Below are positions 2,584-14,811 of a stretch of DNA of 14,811 bases, piece by piece (the stretch's first letter is position 1; every line of letters starts with the position of its first letter). The stretch lies in assembly GCA_003598085.1 (NCBI GenBank), contig QZKU01000027.1, forward strand, positions 1 through 14,811. Direction: 5' to 3'. A program made the position numbers and the translations under genes. Origin of the DNA: Candidatus Abyssobacteria bacterium SURF_5 (GTDB lineage Bacteria > Abyssobacteria > SURF-5). Below the pieces are notes generated by a model. That model saw only the letters and a list, made by a program, of their open reading frames with translations, had not been told where the DNA came from and searched no databases.

Positions 2584-2662
2584 GGTTTCCCACATGCTTG
2601 CAAGCTGAACAGGTTTTGAGCTCAAGGCATCCAGCTTGGCTCCAACTGAAGGAGAAAATAAG

Positions 2663-5600
2663 ATGAGAACCTTTGCGAAACTCATCGCGCTGCTGCCGTT
2701 TCTGCTTCTGGGATTTCCTCTGAACTTGCCTGCGAGTATTTTTGATACGAACCCGGAGATAGTCATTCCGCAAAGCGCCTTCGGTTCTCTTGCCGGATTC
2801 AAAGGGGTGATTGTGCCAACAGGACAGCAATTTTCGTTTCCACAAGAAATGAATATCAACGCATTCAAATCTGACGGGATGGGCGGAGGCATTATGGAGG
2901 TTCAAACCCTACCGATAGATTTTGACGAAACGGATGAGTACAATGTTTGCCACGCCGCAGGATGCGATGGAGGTTCTCTCAATGATCCCATGCCACCCTG
3001 CGGCCTCCAACTCTGCAAGTCTTGTATTATCTCATGGCTCGGTTGTTGCGGTGTTCCATGCTTTAGCTGTCCCGATCCGTCCTATTCAACAATGACGTTT
3101 GAGAATAACTTTCAGATAAGTTGCTATAAGGTGTGCGCGAGGTCCATAGGCTTGTTGCCATGCGATGGATACTGCCAGATGCCGTTTGGCGGAAACTCCT
3201 TTAGTCAATCTGAGCCTTTTTGCTTCGTCAGCGTTCCCAGATGGATATATGAATTGGTGGAAAAGGCGTTTGAGAAACATGACGATCCATCCAAAACAGA
3301 CGAGCCGGTAGACATAGTTACAGGTAATATGTTTACCTTTCCGCAAAGGGACTTGGTTCTTTCCGGAGTCAATGAGACATTCGAGTTCTACAGGACCTAT
3401 AACAGCAGAAGCGAGTATGACGGACCCTTTGGGTACGGGTGGACTCACAGCTATAATGTGGTAATAACCAAACGATCTTCAACATTATACGAGGTAATGG
3501 ACGGAGATGGGAAATTTCACTATTTCCGCGACAACTACGATTGGCCGTCAGGATTCTATACGCCGGTCAACAATGACGGTTCAAAGCTCGAAAGCATCTA
3601 TCAACAAGCGCATATCTGGGTCCGGGATGACGGCACAAAATTCTATTTCCCGTGGCTGATCTCTTCCCCTATGGATGTTCCGTATCGTCCCACGTCCATT
3701 GTCTATAAAGATGGAAATCAATTAACGTTTTCCCCGAGCGATGGCTCTCTTCCGACCCAGATCACCGACACTCATGGCCGGACAATAATTTTGGCCTATG
3801 ATAGCGGTCGAATAACCGACATATATCTCGAGCCAAACAAATTGATTGAATATGAGTATGACACGTCTGGTAATCTGACGACGGTTTCCTATCCGATTTT
3901 CAAGGGGGCAACGCCTTATCAGAAGAACTATGTTTATCAGATCCCGGCCGACCATAACCTCACTGAAATCAGAGATGAGAGGGAAAATTCGTTTTTCTAC
4001 TCCTACGACAGCAGTGACAGATGCATAACAGTAGAGGGTGAAGACGATGGCAACGGCCCTTATTTCAAAACTATTCTCCAGTACCCCGACGTAAATCATA
4101 CGACGGTCGAGCGCATACGAGGCGCTCAAACATTTACTGATAATTACACGTATTCTGATATGGGTTATGTCGTTCAGGTGGACCACGTCGATTCGGGAGT
4201 TACCGAAAAATATTCATACGATATTGTTCCCGACGGTATAACAACTGTGGAAAAGATTATTGAGAAACCGTCGGAAGGATATTACTTGAAAAGAGTAATC
4301 CATCTGGATAAGTACTCGAATATCCTTGACCGGGTCGAGGGACGTGTAGTAGATGAGGAGGCCGACCCGAGCGGCTACCCGGTCCGCATTTTTTATGAGG
4401 ATACGGCGAATCCTAATTTCCCGACAAAGGTTACCGATCAGCGCGCAAGCAGCGTGAACTTTGTTTATAATGCAATCGGAAAAATCGCTGAAATATACCA
4501 AAATAATGAAGGTGCGCCGGAAATCTTCTATGAGGTGACGGATTTCCTCTACAATCCCAACGGCACTCTCGACACCATAACGGACCCGAATGGCAAAATC
4601 GCCGGTTTTTCCTACTACGGTAATAAGGAACTACAAGCCATTGACCCGCCGGGTGTTCTGCCGGCTGTAACATATGAATACGACGGCGCCGGGCGTATAA
4701 CCAAAATCACCCAGAAGGACGACGCCGGAAATGACCGGGTGACCGATATTGTGCGCGACTGGCTGGGACGCATCACGCAGATTACTTATCCCGAGGAGAA
4801 GGGCAAACTCCTCGTTTTGGCCTGTGATTATGACGCTTCTGATGTGTACGACTTAAATGCAAGCTATGGCGTCAACTTGATCGACACCAACGGCGTCAAG
4901 ACGCAATTCCTCTACAATAATCTGGGACTACTGTGGAAGGTCGTTAATGACCGGGGAGAGGGGAAGAGCAATGCCGTCACCGCTCTTGAATACGATGCGT
5001 ACGGTAACATCATTTCACTTACCGATCCCGAGGGTAACACTACCACATTCGCTTATGATTCGCTCGATCGGTTGATATCTGTCACGTATCCTGCCGTCGA
5101 TCAGTACGTCAGGAAGAAAGAGTTTACCTATTATCCCGACGGCAGCCTGAAGACGCGCACTGACCAGAACGGGCAGACCACCACGTACACCTACGACACC
5201 AATAACCGGCTCTCTCAGATCACGTATCCCGACCTGAGCACCGTCACGTACACCTATGAGCCGAACGGGCTTCTGGCCTCGGCAACAAATTCCGCCGGAG
5301 CGGTCACCTTTCAATACGATGACATCAACAGGTTGCAGAACACGAATGGAACGCTCCCGGGCAATGCCGACTACGTCGAGTATCAGTATCACGACGGCGG
5401 CCAGCGCGAGTACATGACGAATCTGATGGGCCAGACTCAGTACACGCTGAACGATTGGAACGCAATTGATGATATCGTCAATCCGCACAGCCGCACGATG
5501 ACGTATTCGTACAACCAGTACACGGGCAACCTCGCGCGCATCGCGGCGACGAGCAGCATCTATACGCTCTATGATTTTGATAATCTTGACCGCCTCGACT

Positions 5601-6961
5601 ATTACCAGCTTTCGAACGGCAGCCTGTTCGATTACGAATATAACGACGCCAATCTCATCGACAGGATCAGTCTGCCCGGCGCCAAATCGTACGAGTACGT
5701 CTATGACGACATGTACCGCCTGACGAATGAATATTCCATCGACAACGGCTCGCCGGTCTATACGAACAATTATGGATATGACCTCGCCGACAACCGCACC
5801 AGCCTGGCCAACGGCAGCCTGGACACCTACGAAATCAATGCGCTGAATCAGGTGACGGCGATCTATCGGCTGGGCAATCCGATTGCCCAATTCGCTTATG
5901 ATCTGAATGGAAACCTCACAAGTCGAACCACCGGCGCGGGAACCGTCACGATGGAATACGACTATGAGAACCGCCTCGTCCGGATCACGTACCCGAGTAA
6001 CAGCGGAACCACCGAATTCGTGTACGACGCATTGGGGCGCAGGCTGAAGACAATCGAGAAGGACGGCCTCGGCCAGATAACCGGCGAGACGCATTATGCG
6101 TATGACGGGCTCGATCTTATCGCCGAGCTCGACGCTAATGACGCGCTGATTGCCGGCTTCACGCACGGGCCGGGCATTGACGACCCGTTGATCGCGCGGT
6201 ATGATGGCACTGATTACCTGTATCAGAAGAATCATCAGGGCAGCGTGCTCGGACTGGCGACGTTCGGCGGAGTGATGGTGAAGAGTTACCGATACGATGC
6301 CTTCGGCAACGTCAAGCAGGAGACCGGGCCGACGATAAACCGCGGCTTCACCTACACCTCGCGCGAGCGCCACGCCCGCTCCGGCCTCTACTACTACCGC
6401 GCCCGCTGGTACTCGCCCGAAATCGGACGCTTTATTACTCAAGATCCCATCGGCTATCTCGGGGGTGCGAATCTGTATGCATACGTGGGAAATGATCCAC
6501 TCAGCTATGTGGATCCATTTGGTTTGTGCAAGGAGGAAGCCGGTTGGCTTGACTGGCTGCAAGGACTTCTGGATGTCGCCGGCGCTCTTGAGCCAACTCC
6601 CATTTGTGATCTTACAAATACTGCCGTATACGCAGGAAGAGGAGAATATGATGACGCCCTATTAACATTGGCTGGGGTAATTCCGTATATAGGTGATGCT
6701 GGCAAAGGTGCTAAATATGCGAGTAAAATTGGTAAAGTCGAATGGCACCACCTGATCCCGAGATATCTCGGAGGCCCTGCCAACGGGTTAAAGGTACGCG
6801 TGGATGCTGTGTATCACCAATTAATTACCAATGAGTTTCGAAGGGCATGGGCATACGGGCAAGGAATGCCTGCCGCTGAACAAGTTCAGGAAATCGTGAT
6901 GAAGGTTTATAAGAAATACCCTGTGGACGACATTATAAGAAAGCAATTGGGTTTCCAGTGA
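2663..6961 (+). CDS. Secreted Rhs/YD-repeat protein with C-terminal HNH/EndoVII-like toxin
   Basis: A 1,432-residue polymorphic toxin. The start at 2663 is chosen because GGAG (2651-2654) lies eight bases upstream and it opens a Sec signal peptide (MRTFAKLIALLPFLLLGF); an in-frame ATG at 2636 would add nine residues and has no such site. Domains in order: signal peptide (1 to about 22); a region with 14 cysteines (about 96-187); a DUF6531-like start (DEPVDIVTGNMF and FYRTYNSR, from about 213); many YD repeats (for example YDTNNRLSQITYP, YDYENRLVRITYP); and the Rhs core with GLYYYRARWYSPEIGRF and a DPxG/DPFG pair ending at PFGL (about 1288). In known Rhs proteins the repeats build a shell and aspartates of the core release the C-terminus. 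The last 144 residues (from nucleotide 6527) hold a pre-toxin helix region (IPYIGDAGKGAKYASK) and VEWHHLIPRYLGG, a His-rich motif typical of HNH/EndoVII nuclease toxins. The nuclease call is inference. The next gene begins at or beside its stop and is its likely immunity gene. Confidence 0.9.
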   Translation: MRTFAKLIALLPFLLLGFPLNLPASIFDTNPEIVIPQSAFGSLAGFKGVIVPTGQQFSFPQEMNINAFKSDGMGGGIMEVQTLPIDFDETDEYNVCHAAGCDGGSLNDPMPPCGLQLCKSCIISWLGCCGVPCFSCPDPSYSTMTFENNFQISCYKVCARSIGLLPCDGYCQMPFGGNSFSQSEPFCFVSVPRWIYELVEKAFEKHDDPSKTDEPVDIVTGNMFTFPQRDLVLSGVNETFEFYRTYNSRSEYDGPFGYGWTHSYNVVITKRSSTLYEVMDGDGKFHYFRDNYDWPSGFYTPVNNDGSKLESIYQQAHIWVRDDGTKFYFPWLISSPMDVPYRPTSIVYKDGNQLTFSPSDGSLPTQITDTHGRTIILAYDSGRITDIYLEPNKLIEYEYDTSGNLTTVSYPIFKGATPYQKNYVYQIPADHNLTEIRDERENSFFYSYDSSDRCITVEGEDDGNGPYFKTILQYPDVNHTTVERIRGAQTFTDNYTYSDMGYVVQVDHVDSGVTEKYSYDIVPDGITTVEKIIEKPSEGYYLKRVIHLDKYSNILDRVEGRVVDEEADPSGYPVRIFYEDTANPNFPTKVTDQRASSVNFVYNAIGKIAEIYQNNEGAPEIFYEVTDFLYNPNGTLDTITDPNGKIAGFSYYGNKELQAIDPPGVLPAVTYEYDGAGRITKITQKDDAGNDRVTDIVRDWLGRITQITYPEEKGKLLVLACDYDASDVYDLNASYGVNLIDTNGVKTQFLYNNLGLLWKVVNDRGEGKSNAVTALEYDAYGNIISLTDPEGNTTTFAYDSLDRLISVTYPAVDQYVRKKEFTYYPDGSLKTRTDQNGQTTTYTYDTNNRLSQITYPDLSTVTYTYEPNGLLASATNSAGAVTFQYDDINRLQNTNGTLPGNADYVEYQYHDGGQREYMTNLMGQTQYTLNDWNAIDDIVNPHSRTMTYSYNQYTGNLARIAATSSIYTLYDFDNLDRLDYYQLSNGSLFDYEYNDANLIDRISLPGAKSYEYVYDDMYRLTNEYSIDNGSPVYTNNYGYDLADNRTSLANGSLDTYEINALNQVTAIYRLGNPIAQFAYDLNGNLTSRTTGAGTVTMEYDYENRLVRITYPSNSGTTEFVYDALGRRLKTIEKDGLGQITGETHYAYDGLDLIAELDANDALIAGFTHGPGIDDPLIARYDGTDYLYQKNHQGSVLGLATFGGVMVKSYRYDAFGNVKQETGPTINRGFTYTSRERHARSGLYYYRARWYSPEIGRFITQDPIGYLGGANLYAYVGNDPLSYVDPFGLCKEEAGWLDWLQGLLDVAGALEPTPICDLTNTAVYAGRGEYDDALLTLAGVIPYIGDAGKGAKYASKIGKVEWHHLIPRYLGGPANGLKVRVDAVYHQLITNEFRRAWAYGQGMPAAEQVQEIVMKVYKKYPVDDIIRKQLGFQ

Positions 6962-6969
6962 GGTGTCTG

Positions 6970-7836
6970 ATGCAAGAGCTTGCTGAGTTTCGTGTACCCG
7001 AAGATAATGCCCAAAGATATCTGCGCCCGAACGAGGGAAAGCTGTTGGGCGATAGCGTTCGGAAGGTAATCGTCCCCCTCCGTGGCGAAAGAGCACAATA
7101 TATTGGCAGGATTGATAAGGCGATGCACCGTGAGGAAGACAGATCCTTCTTCTTCGGATGGCACATCGTGCGGAAATATACCAAAGAAGAACTGCGCAAT
7201 GCCGAACTGCTCCAGATCATAATCAAAAGGACTTTCGAGCCCGCTGCTGAGGAATGCGGGACGGTGTACGATGACTACAATGCTTGCCGCCTCTGCGGGT
7301 TTGATAGAAAGCAGATGACCGAACTGTTCCTAAGCGTCGGAAGACTCGGCACGCGCACAGACATAGCAAGAACGATCGCCGGCGAAGTCGTCGTTTCCGC
7401 CCATTTTGCCGAAACGTGGGAAAGGCATGAATTGACGGGGCTTGGCTTCAGGCAGGTCTACCGGCGGATGAGCCGCCGTTCGCAGTTGGCCGGAAAACAG
7501 CCGACCGCTGCAGAAGGGTGGTACCAGATAGTTCCGCTCTCAAAACCTGTTGAAGTTGTCCCCCCTACCCGAGCAGGCATACACCCCTTTGATGACGATG
7601 AAGAAGGTGAATACAGATGTCCCGGGCATGTGCTGGGGCTGAATCTGCTTTCGGAGCTTACGGTCTCCCGCGAGAGCTACGAGGGCAGAGACTTCGCTGT
7701 CACTAACCTGGGGTTCGGATGCAAGCGAGGCCTCCTCAGACCGGAACGACGGCTGGTGATATCTCAGCGCGCATGGAACTGCTTGCTCCGTGATAAAGTG
7801 CGTGGTTTTACGGTCGAGATAGTCCATCTGGTCTGA
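6970..7836 (+). CDS. SitI6-like double-CXXCG-motif immunity protein
   Basis: A 288-residue protein from the ATG at 6970, chosen because GAGG (6960-6963) lies six bases upstream. A GTG at 6958, overlapping the rhs stop by four bases, would give 292 residues and is the alternative. Numbered from that GTG, the first half carries CRLCG (110-114) followed by a segment with TDIARTIAGEVVVS. The second half carries RCPGHVLGLNLLSELTVSR (220-238) and GLLRPERRLVIS. This matches the arrangement I recall for the double-CXXCG family described in Myxococcus, where SitI6 protects against a swarm-inhibition toxin. The second motif here is CPGH rather than a full CXXCG. Its place directly after the toxin end of the rhs gene makes it the expected cognate immunity protein, presumably cytoplasmic (no signal peptide or membrane span). 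Confidence 0.65.
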   Translation: MQELAEFRVPEDNAQRYLRPNEGKLLGDSVRKVIVPLRGERAQYIGRIDKAMHREEDRSFFFGWHIVRKYTKEELRNAELLQIIIKRTFEPAAEECGTVYDDYNACRLCGFDRKQMTELFLSVGRLGTRTDIARTIAGEVVVSAHFAETWERHELTGLGFRQVYRRMSRRSQLAGKQPTAAEGWYQIVPLSKPVEVVPPTRAGIHPFDDDEEGEYRCPGHVLGLNLLSELTVSRESYEGRDFAVTNLGFGCKRGLLRPERRLVISQRAWNCLLRDKVRGFTVEIVHLV

Positions 7837-7837
7837 C

Positions 7838-8053
7838 ATGCTTAACATGAGCCGGGTCCTTCCAAGCTTTATCAAGGATTCTCGCCTCAACGGACAATAT
7901 ATGAGCATAGCAGATCACGCTCTGAATGATCCGTATCGCTATAAAATGATGTATGCGGGTTGGAAAGCTGCGAACCCGATCAATCCGGTATGGTTGCAAC
8001 AACTAAATAGGATACCGCCTTGGATTAAATGGGCAACAGCTGGTGCTGTTTAA
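7838..8053 (+). CDS. Orphan 71-residue ORF, possible displaced toxin C-terminus
   Basis: The frame opens one base after the stop of the immunity gene and encodes 71 residues, MLNMSRVLPSFIKDSRLNGQ onward. It includes SIADHALNDPYRYKMMYAGW and ends NRIPPWIKWATAGAV. The composition, with aromatic and proline pairs, looks like real protein rather than a shadow frame. No ribosome binding site precedes the ATG, and the in-frame stop at about 7818 means it is not the tail of a longer visible frame. I do not recognise the family. Its position between two immunity genes is where displaced C-terminal toxin fragments accumulate behind rhs genes, so a leftover toxin tail belonging to the following SUKH gene is the best guess. 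An expressed small protein is the alternative. Confidence 0.45.
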   Translation: MLNMSRVLPSFIKDSRLNGQYMSIADHALNDPYRYKMMYAGWKAANPINPVWLQQLNRIPPWIKWATAGAV

Positions 8054-8130
8054 GTGCCTCAATGGCTAGTAGTGGGTCGTAGTCTCGGTATAGCAACAGA
8101 AACTCAAATGCAGTAAAGGAGATGTTCGAA

Positions 8131-8760
8131 TTGCCAGCATCGCCAAAGCAGATCCTTGAGAAGCATACTCATTTGATTACGCTCTTTCCTGGTCTTTCAG
8201 AACAAGAACTTGACAGGTTCAGAAAACGTTTGGGGGGATACCTTCCTGCCGAAATCAATGAGCTGCTGATTTACTCAACGGGATTTATCTACGCGCAGGA
8301 AAGAGCCATATGCTTCACCGGCCATGAAGATTTCGCATTTGAAGAGGCCTTTCCATGTTCAATCGCAGTGCTACCCGATGGTTTGGGGAACTTTTGGGTC
8401 GTGGACATAAATAAAGAGGATGGGGCATGGGGGCCGGTTTTCTATGTGTGCCATGACCCCGCCGTCGTTGTCGTGCAGGCGCCGGAACTGGCATCGTTTC
8501 TTCTGCAAGTTCTTCAACCCCTCGAGGGAGTTCCTAAGAACGCGCTGGATTATGTTTCCAAGAAGGCCGCGTTTACTATCTGGAGACAGGATCCTTGGCT
8601 CATGCCGTATAACGACCCGCGAATTCCCCAGGATCCCCTTGTTTCCGACTTTGCAAAACAGCTTTTGCAAAACTGTCGCATCGCCGATCTGCGCCGGAAA
8701 GAAATCGGAAGCGGCTTCAGATGGGGGGCGAGCCGTGGCACGGCGCAGATATGGGACTGA
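8131..8760 (+). CDS. SUKH (SMI1/KNR4) family immunity protein, C-terminus frameshifted
   Basis: The SUKH fold is recognisable from GLSEQELDRFRKRLGG and LPAEINELLIYSTGF, then LPDGLGNFWVVDI, WGPVFYVCHDPAVVVVQAPE and LASFLLQVL. SUKH proteins neutralise diverse, mostly nuclease, toxins in polymorphic-toxin loci. Start choice: AAAGGAG (8115-8121) abuts the ATG at 8122, which is too close to serve it, whereas TTG at 8131 sits nine bases downstream; 8122 is the alternative. The last ten or so residues (after GSGFRWG) look unnatural, while another frame continues with RYGTELILGVEHKEKATF to a stop at 8836. This resembles the usual end of the family. One extra G in the G6 run at 8723-8728 explains the switch. 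The gene may therefore be impaired, or the base may be a sequencing error. Confidence 0.8.
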   Translation: MPASPKQILEKHTHLITLFPGLSEQELDRFRKRLGGYLPAEINELLIYSTGFIYAQERAICFTGHEDFAFEEAFPCSIAVLPDGLGNFWVVDINKEDGAWGPVFYVCHDPAVVVVQAPELASFLLQVLQPLEGVPKNALDYVSKKAAFTIWRQDPWLMPYNDPRIPQDPLVSDFAKQLLQNCRIADLRRKEIGSGFRWGASRGTAQIWD

Positions 8761-14460: not shown

Positions 14461-14489
14461 TTGACAAATTCCATCTTCATACTTATAAT
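14461..14489 (+). promoter_or_regulatory. Perfect consensus sigma-70 promoter reading into the tRNA-like array
   Basis: TTGACA (14461-14466), exactly 17 bases, then TATAAT (14484-14489): both boxes and the spacer equal the consensus. No protein-coding gene follows on this strand in the window. The first structured features downstream are a hairpin at 14550-14573 and the tRNA-like tandem repeats from 14603. Transcription should start near 14496. Confidence 0.8.
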
Positions 14490-14549
14490 TAAGAAGCATA
14501 AACAGATGAAATAGCAAGCGCATGCGTCCGGTTTCTGTGCGCTTATAAA

Positions 14550-14573
14550 CCTCCCTGTCGATCGGCAGTGAGG
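14550..14573 (+). other. Imperfect hairpin in the leader of the tRNA-like array
   Basis: CCTC-c-CTG and CAG-t-GAGG pair around TCGATCGG with one mismatch. It is followed after nine bases by a T6 run (14582-14587), a loose terminator-like arrangement; the gap is too long for a standard one. If it does terminate, the promoter would make only a ~90-base RNA. Confidence 0.35.
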
Positions 14574-14602
14574 TTAAAGCATTTTTTGTGCCACGCTTGC
14601 GC

Positions 14603-14700
14603 AACTGAATTCCCCGGTAGCTCAGTCGGTAGAGTCCCGCGTCCTCGCGGGATTAACCACCAAGCCGCCGGAGACATGACCGATCAGGTATCGGCCAGAA
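14603..14700 (+). repeat. tRNA-like tandem repeat, unit 1
   Basis: The 98-base unit begins AACTGAATTCCCCGGTAG. Bases 14611-14634 match the 5' part of a bacterial tRNA: a 7-base acceptor strand, TA, and the D-arm GCTCAGTCGGTAGAG. After that the match ends. A GC-rich hairpin TCCCGCG-TCCT-CGCGGGA (14635-14652) stands where the anticodon arm should be but with a 4-base loop. No TTCGANTC T-arm and no complementary 3' acceptor strand follow. A second hairpin, CCGAT-CAGGT-ATCGG, lies at 14680-14694. It is therefore not a functional tRNA gene as seen. Confidence 0.75.
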
Positions 14701-14796
14701 AACTGAAATTCGCCGGTAGCTCAGTCGGTAGAGTCCCGCGCCTCGCGGGATTAACCACCAAGCCGCCGGTAACTGACCGATCAGGTATCGGTTAAA
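14701..14796 (+). repeat. tRNA-like tandem repeat, unit 2
   Basis: A 96-base near-copy of unit 1, with the same D-arm (14719-14733), the same anticodon-position hairpin with a 3-base loop (TCCCGCG-CCT-CGCGGGA, 14734-14750), and the second hairpin lengthened to ACCGAT-CAGGT-ATCGGT (14776-14792). Differences fall in loops and linkers, while both stems are kept or strengthened. Confidence 0.75.
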
Positions 14797-14811
14797 AACT
14801 GAATTCCCCGG
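14797..14811 (+). repeat. tRNA-like tandem repeat, start of unit 3 (cut by window end)
   Basis: AACTGAATTCCCCGG is identical to the first 15 bases of unit 1, so the array continues beyond the window. Unit 3 could be another repeat or a genuine tRNA gene; the window cannot tell. Confidence 0.7.

Follow-up and report, generated by a model that had tools for sequence, protein, structure and literature searches.

The window analysed here is one whole contig (C27) of 14,811 nt from the 5.1-Mb, 145-contig, 98% complete genome of a Candidatus Abyssobacteria bacterium (G000). At the right end of this contig, a promoter is followed by tandem units that begin like a tRNA gene and then depart from it. 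What are these units, what lies beyond the contig end, and does the same arrangement occur elsewhere? A preliminary description of the sequence had proposed an array of structured small RNAs, tRNA decoys or a tRNA-derived selfish repeat.

Anatomy of the units

Two tandem units start at positions 14611 and 14710 of the forward strand, and a third start lies at 14805, giving spacings of 99 and 95 nt; the preliminary description had recognized the tandem repetition but put the unit length at 96-98 bases. Unit 1 opens with nucleotides 1-24 of tRNA-Asn (14611-14634), comprising the acceptor 5' strand and the D-arm, which are identical to the tRNA-Asn of genome G098 at 7 of 7 and 16 of 17 positions, respectively. 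An 18-nt palindrome with a 7-bp stem and a 4-nt loop (14635-14652) substitutes for tRNA nucleotides 25-34, removing the 5' strand of the anticodon stem and two loop bases. It is followed by TTAACCACC (14653-14661), a remnant of tRNA-Asn nucleotides 35-43 that is identical to the G098 gene at 9 of 9 positions, and by a non-tRNA tail (14662-14709) with a second hairpin (14680-14694, 5 bp) that is predicted to pair back on the 5' half. Unit 2 consists of nucleotides 1-24 with one change relative to tRNA-Asn (TCGCCGG; 14710-14733), a 17-nt palindrome with a 7-bp stem and a 3-nt loop (14734-14750), and the TTAACCACC remnant with its tail (14751-14804), whose second hairpin (14774-14794) reaches 8 bp in the RNA fold. 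The same 17-mer is present at positions 107-123 of contig C45 of this genome. Neither unit has a T-arm or a 3' acceptor strand. The parts that the preliminary description had listed for each unit, including the extension of one stem in unit 2, were all confirmed.

ARAGORN detected no tRNA in the array, in agreement with the earlier view that the units are tRNA-like without being tRNAs; a cloverleaf with anticodon and T-arms was not found, and the RF00005 model was not reached. Rfam assigned no known family to the array at the gathering score, and its weak matches were due to chance. Compared with dinucleotide shuffles, the RNA folds gave z-scores of -4.0 (unit 1) and -5.3 (unit 2), or -3.1 and -4.3 when the palindrome was kept unshuffled, two units in the window being too few for statistics. 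The tail and the second hairpin are not conserved from genome to genome. Taken with the leader described below, the units are very likely disabled 5' halves of tRNA-Asn(GTT) in the transcribed leader of the tRNA-Asn gene.

Promoter, leader and contig end

A sigma-70-type promoter, TTGACA-N17-TATAAT, lies upstream of the units on the forward strand (14461-14489). It scores 12/12, as the preliminary description had stated, and only 0.3 sites of any kind scoring at least 9/12 are expected in shuffled sequence. Identical hexamers with the same 17-nt spacer are located 5' of tRNA-Asn in the related genomes G001 and G002. The 5' leader ahead of unit 1 (14490-14610, forward strand) carries a hairpin at 14548-14575 that folds with a z-score of -3.2 and was not called terminator-like; the preliminary description had placed it at 14550-14573 and suggested that it could limit read-through. 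In G002, a leader of ~100 nt separates a like promoter from an intact tRNA-Asn.

What had been taken for the start of a third unit (14805-14811, forward strand) consists of TCCCCGG, 7 nt identical to tRNA-Asn nucleotides 1-7, after which the contig ends. We detected 41 tRNAs in the G000 assembly, and tRNA-Asn was not among them; tRNA-Cys, tRNA-Ile, tRNA-Ala-TGC and tRNA-Leu-TAA are missing as well. Given the promoter and synteny in G001 and G002, and given the missing tRNA-Asn, we infer that the promoter in the window is that of tRNA-Asn and that the sequence at 14805 is very probably not another unit but the beginning of the real tRNA-Asn(GTT), truncated where the contig stops. Contig C135 of G001 ends in an analogous way, 24 nt into tRNA-Asn. 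The repeats or the tRNA themselves probably caused C27 to end where it does. Elsewhere in the window, positions 2636-8760 encode an RHS-repeat protein (PF05593, DUF6531), an ORF without a Pfam match and a SUKH/SMI1-KNR4 protein, a set typical of a polymorphic toxin with its immunity gene.

The locus in relatives and on a second contig

G001 has the same Mla ABC-transporter gene as neighbour, the same promoter and three palindromes, one of which follows TAGCTCAG, a scrap of the D-arm. G002, which belongs to the same family as G000, has the promoter, the leader and an intact tRNA-Asn but no units, and a PF01541 search of the contig holding this tRNA-Asn found no GIY-YIG gene. In G000 itself, contig C45 opens with a GIY-YIG-like C-terminus (..RERQIKKRGPRRYVQDHSQSVESRASRD and a stop), a C-terminal fragment recognized by eye, which reads into GTAGAG, the 17-mer of unit 2 and TTAACCA. 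Contig C45 is probably the other side of the window locus, and we predict the join C27, tRNA-Asn, C45. Neither tRNA-Asn nor GIY-YIG is visible beside the window array itself, where C27 ends.

The whole architecture in Hydrogenedentota

The D-arm-plus-palindrome sequence had a single exact match in 84,980 species, in a Candidatus Hydrogenedentes MAG (G098), in which two units lie directly 5' of an intact tRNA-Asn(GTT). BLAST matches in other genomes were nearly all tRNA-Asn genes themselves. A phage or plasmid origin was rejected, since phages and plasmids gave no DNA match and IMG/VR none by pattern.

We searched 68 Hydrogenedentota genomes for the arrangement. On contigs C554 of G151 and C85 of G146, a 5'-half unit, tRNA-Asn, a spacer, a GIY-YIG gene and a 3'-half pseudo-tRNA with the same core follow one another on a single contig, and the pseudo-tRNA is followed by a second spacer or a second start of the GIY-YIG gene. 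The spacer between the intact tRNA-Asn and the GIY-YIG gene is terminator-like. In G098, the arrangement is split between contigs C9 (two units, tRNA-Asn and the start of the GIY-YIG gene) and C95 (the end of that gene and the pseudo-tRNA), and in G149 and G150 it was seen at contig ends. In the left copies, the acceptor 5' strand is present and the 3' half is gone; the right copies have no 5' strand and in most cases retain the 3' half. Wherever the assembly continues (G098, G146, G150, G151 and the tRNA-Phe locus of G440, described below), the units are followed by an intact tRNA gene of their own isotype.

We also scanned tRNA-Asn loci without reference to the palindrome, covering 30 loci in Hydrogenedentota and 15 outside this phylum. 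Copies of the 5' half were present at 4 of the 30 loci, always upstream, and at none of the 15 outside loci. The break lies at nucleotide 24 in three of these copies; the fourth, interrupted by a palindrome in the D-loop, breaks at nucleotide 16. Copies beginning at nucleotide 35 or later lie downstream, and the upstream/downstream picture holds at 4 to 5 of the 30 loci.

Some other loci showed variant arrangements. In G113 (contig C190, L118), two or three tandem 3'-half tRNA-Asn units flank a GIY-YIG gene on both sides and use a related palindrome, TCCGCC-GCA-GGCGGA. At L014 (G010, contig C3) and L018 (G069, contig C37), a second tRNA-Asn 3' end lies 250-340 nt downstream with an inverted T-arm in between, and no GIY-YIG gene was found at either locus.

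A third phylum and a second tRNA isotype

A core pattern consisting of GTAGAG and the palindrome was run on a sample of 386 genomes. As GTAGAG is built into it, this pattern is blind to site specificity, which the palindrome-blind scan can show. The pattern was present in G000 and in G440, a genome outside both Abyssobacteria and Hydrogenedentota, while the corresponding control pattern had zero matches in all searched genomes. Matches in G441 and G412 were dismissed as chance, lying inside genes and without tRNA context. On contig C57 of G440, five tRNA-Asn-like units with a spacing of ~92 nt stand at the contig end and probably precede tRNA-Asn. Three further units lie 5' of an intact tRNA-Phe. 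Next to the G440 arrays, where the contigs end, a GIY-YIG gene was not seen. That two isotypes share one design speaks for a process that affects tRNA genes repeatedly, and against a single event. The architecture recurs in at least three bacterial phyla, usually with a GIY-YIG gene beside it.

The GIY-YIG gene beside tRNA-Asn

In 6 of the 30 Hydrogenedentota loci, a GIY-YIG gene (PF01541, E-values of 1e-14 to 1e-17) lies just 3' of tRNA-Asn on the same strand; the E-values were 3e-16 in G151, 6e-17 in G149 and 8e-15 in G146, and in G000 the GIY-YIG-like C-terminal fragment on contig C45 is the only trace of such a gene at this locus. The encoded proteins have ~90 amino acids. Their nearest solved relatives are 1zg2 and 1ywl (UPF0213), followed by SLX1, with the match confined to the catalytic domain. 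The family has one to four members per genome. The gene ends in the tRNA-Asn D-arm, with the protein terminating in ..VESRxxRD before the stop in G146, G149 and contig C45. In G157, G121 and G113, a GIY-YIG gene adjoins tRNA-Asn without 5'-half units, which indicates that the gene and the units are separable. Overall, the units likely belong to a recurrent GIY-YIG-associated locus, of which C45 would be the other side.

The palindrome

The palindrome in the units is of the type TCCCGC-N-GCGGGA, with the general form TCMCGC-N-GCGKGA. Two stem pairs show compensatory changes (pair 3, C-G/A-U; pair 7, G-C/C-G), with a score reached by 0 of 500 shuffles; the sequences are related, so this covariation is indicative. 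The general form is dispersed genome-wide, with 85 matches against 7 for the control in G000, 131 against 8 in G001 and 97 against 6 in G440, and it is 3 to 16 times commoner than the control in genomes that have units or are close to G000. A different repeat, GGATTCCCGCTTTCGCGGGAATGAC, which may resemble the Neisseria dRS3 repeat, supplies part of this count. The palindrome also occurs in the D-loop and T-arm of broken tRNA copies. GTAG stands 5' of the palindrome inside tRNA copies because the tRNA itself has GTAG; at the dispersed copies the flanks vary, and a consistent GTAG or CGTC tag is absent.

Mobilization of the palindrome by a RAYT was considered and rejected. The Y1_Tnp loci in these genomes carry mostly other palindromes; two Y1_Tnp loci of G440 each hold one TCACGC palindrome. 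The RAYT-like genes of G149 and G150 (Y1_Tnp loci L181-L205) have their own REP-like flanking palindromes, such as CCCAGCGATGAATCGCTGGG and CGGCGGCGTCGAGCCGCCG. In G000, two further GIY-YIG genes (L084 on contig C33 and L088 on contig C98) have another palindrome, GTCATTCCTGC..GCAGGAATCCAGG, at their flanks, a hint that GIY-YIG genes may be associated with palindromes more broadly.

Predicted folding of the units beside the real tRNA

We folded constructs that join the units to the tRNA they precede. With natural units, the predicted probability of the acceptor stem of the real tRNA was 0.93 in G150, 0.91 in G151, 0.97 in G146, 0.90 at the tRNA-Phe locus of G440 and 0.88 for the window, the last being a hypothetical construct of the window units and the G002 tRNA. 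With the unit tails shuffled, these values were 0.17, 0.35, 0.67, 0.10 and 0.21, respectively. G098 behaved in the opposite way, with 0.20 for natural units and 0.57 for shuffled tails. Putting the native 10 nt back in place of the palindrome lowered the acceptor-stem probability in 4 of 6 constructs and was harmless in G098 and G146. When the tail after nucleotide 44 alone was shuffled, self-pairing was significant in G000 and at the G440 tRNA-Phe locus, and not in G150, at the G440 tRNA-Asn array, in G098 or in G146. These models suggest that the folding of the units may keep the copies harmless to the real tRNA; as G098 contradicts this, we put insulation forward as a hypothesis and not as a result.

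Discussion

We consider it fairly probable that the window holds the left-hand side of an element located at tRNA-Asn, its units being scars of a GIY-YIG element that duplicates tRNA segments in the manner of SegB, with the surplus halves defused by palindrome and tail. A putative GIY-YIG nuclease would nick or cut the DNA at or near tRNA-Asn, and recombination repair between the tRNA and the tRNA-like D-arm that ends the GIY-YIG gene would duplicate segments of the tRNA. The survivors would be lineages with one intact, promoter-linked tRNA-Asn. Surplus halves would persist if they are unable to rob the real tRNA of its 3' strand, and the palindrome, together with the tail, which is complementary to the tRNA half, would make each unit fold on itself. 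Among the natures proposed in the preliminary description, a tRNA-derived repeat is the one that the evidence favours; its selfishness is presumed.

A bolder and more tentative proposal is that these loci represent a new class of mobile elements in at least three phyla. A small GIY-YIG gene would insert at an essential single-copy tRNA gene (Asn, Phe), split the host gene at nucleotides 24/35 with a 17-nt palindrome at both joints, and supply a complete copy of the tRNA that is transcribed from the promoter of the host. Each further round would add 5' halves in tandem on the upstream side and 3' halves on the downstream side, all of them refolded in a way that spares the real tRNA from misfolding.

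The units could instead be neutral debris, with ordinary tandem duplication of the tRNA locus yielding dying partial copies in which a common REP-like palindrome landed, and the GIY-YIG gene a bystander or hitch-hiker. The genome-wide dispersal of the palindrome, the separate occurrence of units and GIY-YIG genes, and the near identity of units 3-5 on contig C57 of G440, as plain tandem duplication would produce, all agree with such an origin. However, the breakpoints recur at nucleotides 24 and 35 in separate genomes and in both types of half, which random landing would not achieve. Moreover, a GIY-YIG neighbour at 6 of 30 loci greatly exceeds what chance would give with so small a family, and the split is orderly, with the acceptor 5' strand only upstream and the 3' strand only downstream. 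We therefore regard neutral debris as rather doubtful.

It is improbable that the units form a regulatory leader, an attenuator or processing signal that controls tRNA-Asn expression. Their position in the leader, the stable hairpins between promoter and tRNA and the presence of several units in some lineages would suit this role, but G002, from the same family, does without units, unit number and tails vary widely, and no terminator-like site was found inside the units.

Very improbable, too, are the small structured RNAs and the tRNA decoys of the preliminary description, units of an independent array that would be cut from one transcript and bind tRNA enzymes or nucleases. The strong promoter, folding beyond that of shuffles and the stems kept between units are compatible with such an array. 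Yet wherever the sequence runs on, the units stand in the leader of an intact tRNA of the same isotype, and 5' halves with no anticodon loop, T-arm or 3' acceptor strand offer little for tRNA enzymes to recognize; the variable tail and second hairpin and the lack of an Rfam family also speak against this reading.

Scars of ordinary integrase-type islands that use tRNA-Asn as attachment site are a most improbable source. At its distal end, such an island regenerates the 3' portion of the tRNA, and in G141, a Hydrogenedentota genome (contig C801, 10500-17500; L126), a ~5.2-kb element that looks like an integrase-type island does lie between tRNA-Asn and a 49-nt copy of the 3' half downstream. 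Integrative elements at tRNA sites and the present loci both place an intact tRNA beside a partial copy. The former copy the 3' end, however, whereas the present loci have their 5' halves upstream, their 3' halves downstream and palindromes where the parts join; to our knowledge, att duplications carry no palindromes. No 3'-end direct repeat with an integrase gene was found in the window, where the units are 5' halves and no integrase is among the proteins tested. Finally, although the array and several homologous loci stand at contig ends, an assembly artefact is barely conceivable, as the sequences of units 1 and 2 are not the same, G151 and G146 have homologous units in the interior of contigs, and G001 keeps related palindromes at the syntenic site.

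If a GIY-YIG element does act at tRNA-Asn, homing nucleases linked to tRNA genes would be known not only from phages but also from the chromosomes of bacteria that are themselves little known, and the loci would show how the only copy of an essential tRNA gene could withstand repeated attack and remain functional. They would also offer a concrete, testable example of RNA segments that evolve so as not to interfere with the folding of a neighbour, give a clue to the spread of a palindrome whose enrichment in these genomes reaches 16-fold, and explain the tendency of tRNA-Asn to fall in assembly gaps of these lineages.

The open-licence literature that we searched contained no description of such arrays, and only the papers on SegB and REP sequences proved useful. 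Group I introns also interrupt tRNA-Asn in or near the anticodon loop, as one does in the unrelated genome G065 (contig C8; L016, 1527-1743; RF00028, 82.5 bits). Unlike these introns, the present loci match no intron model, have lost nucleotides 25-34 and, in relatives, keep an intact tRNA beside the broken ones. REP/RAYT palindromes and CGTC repeats resemble the unit palindrome in being short, GC-rich and dispersed in the genome, with some copies inside genes (PMC3733652); the palindrome described here differs in its 7-bp stem, its loop of 3 and the variable flanks of its dispersed copies. The UPF0213 and SLX1 proteins are akin to the element's GIY-YIG protein in the catalytic domain only.

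The T-even phages encode SegB, a free-standing GIY-YIG homing endonuclease. In phage T6, it causes a unit of tRNA-Tyr and segB to be amplified in tandem, probably via a sequence common to the 5' end of the tRNA and the 3' end of segB (PMC13096335); this amplification was reported only in 2026 (PMC13096335). Unlike SegB, the present system is chromosomal, occurs in uncultured bacteria, encodes a putative nuclease of ~90 amino acids and has surplus half-tRNAs blocked by a palindrome. In both systems, a GIY-YIG gene adjoins a tRNA gene and a repeated unit comprises the tRNA and the nuclease gene; the microhomology in T6 between the 5' region of the tRNA and the end of segB has its counterpart here in a GIY-YIG gene that runs into the D-arm of tRNA-Asn.
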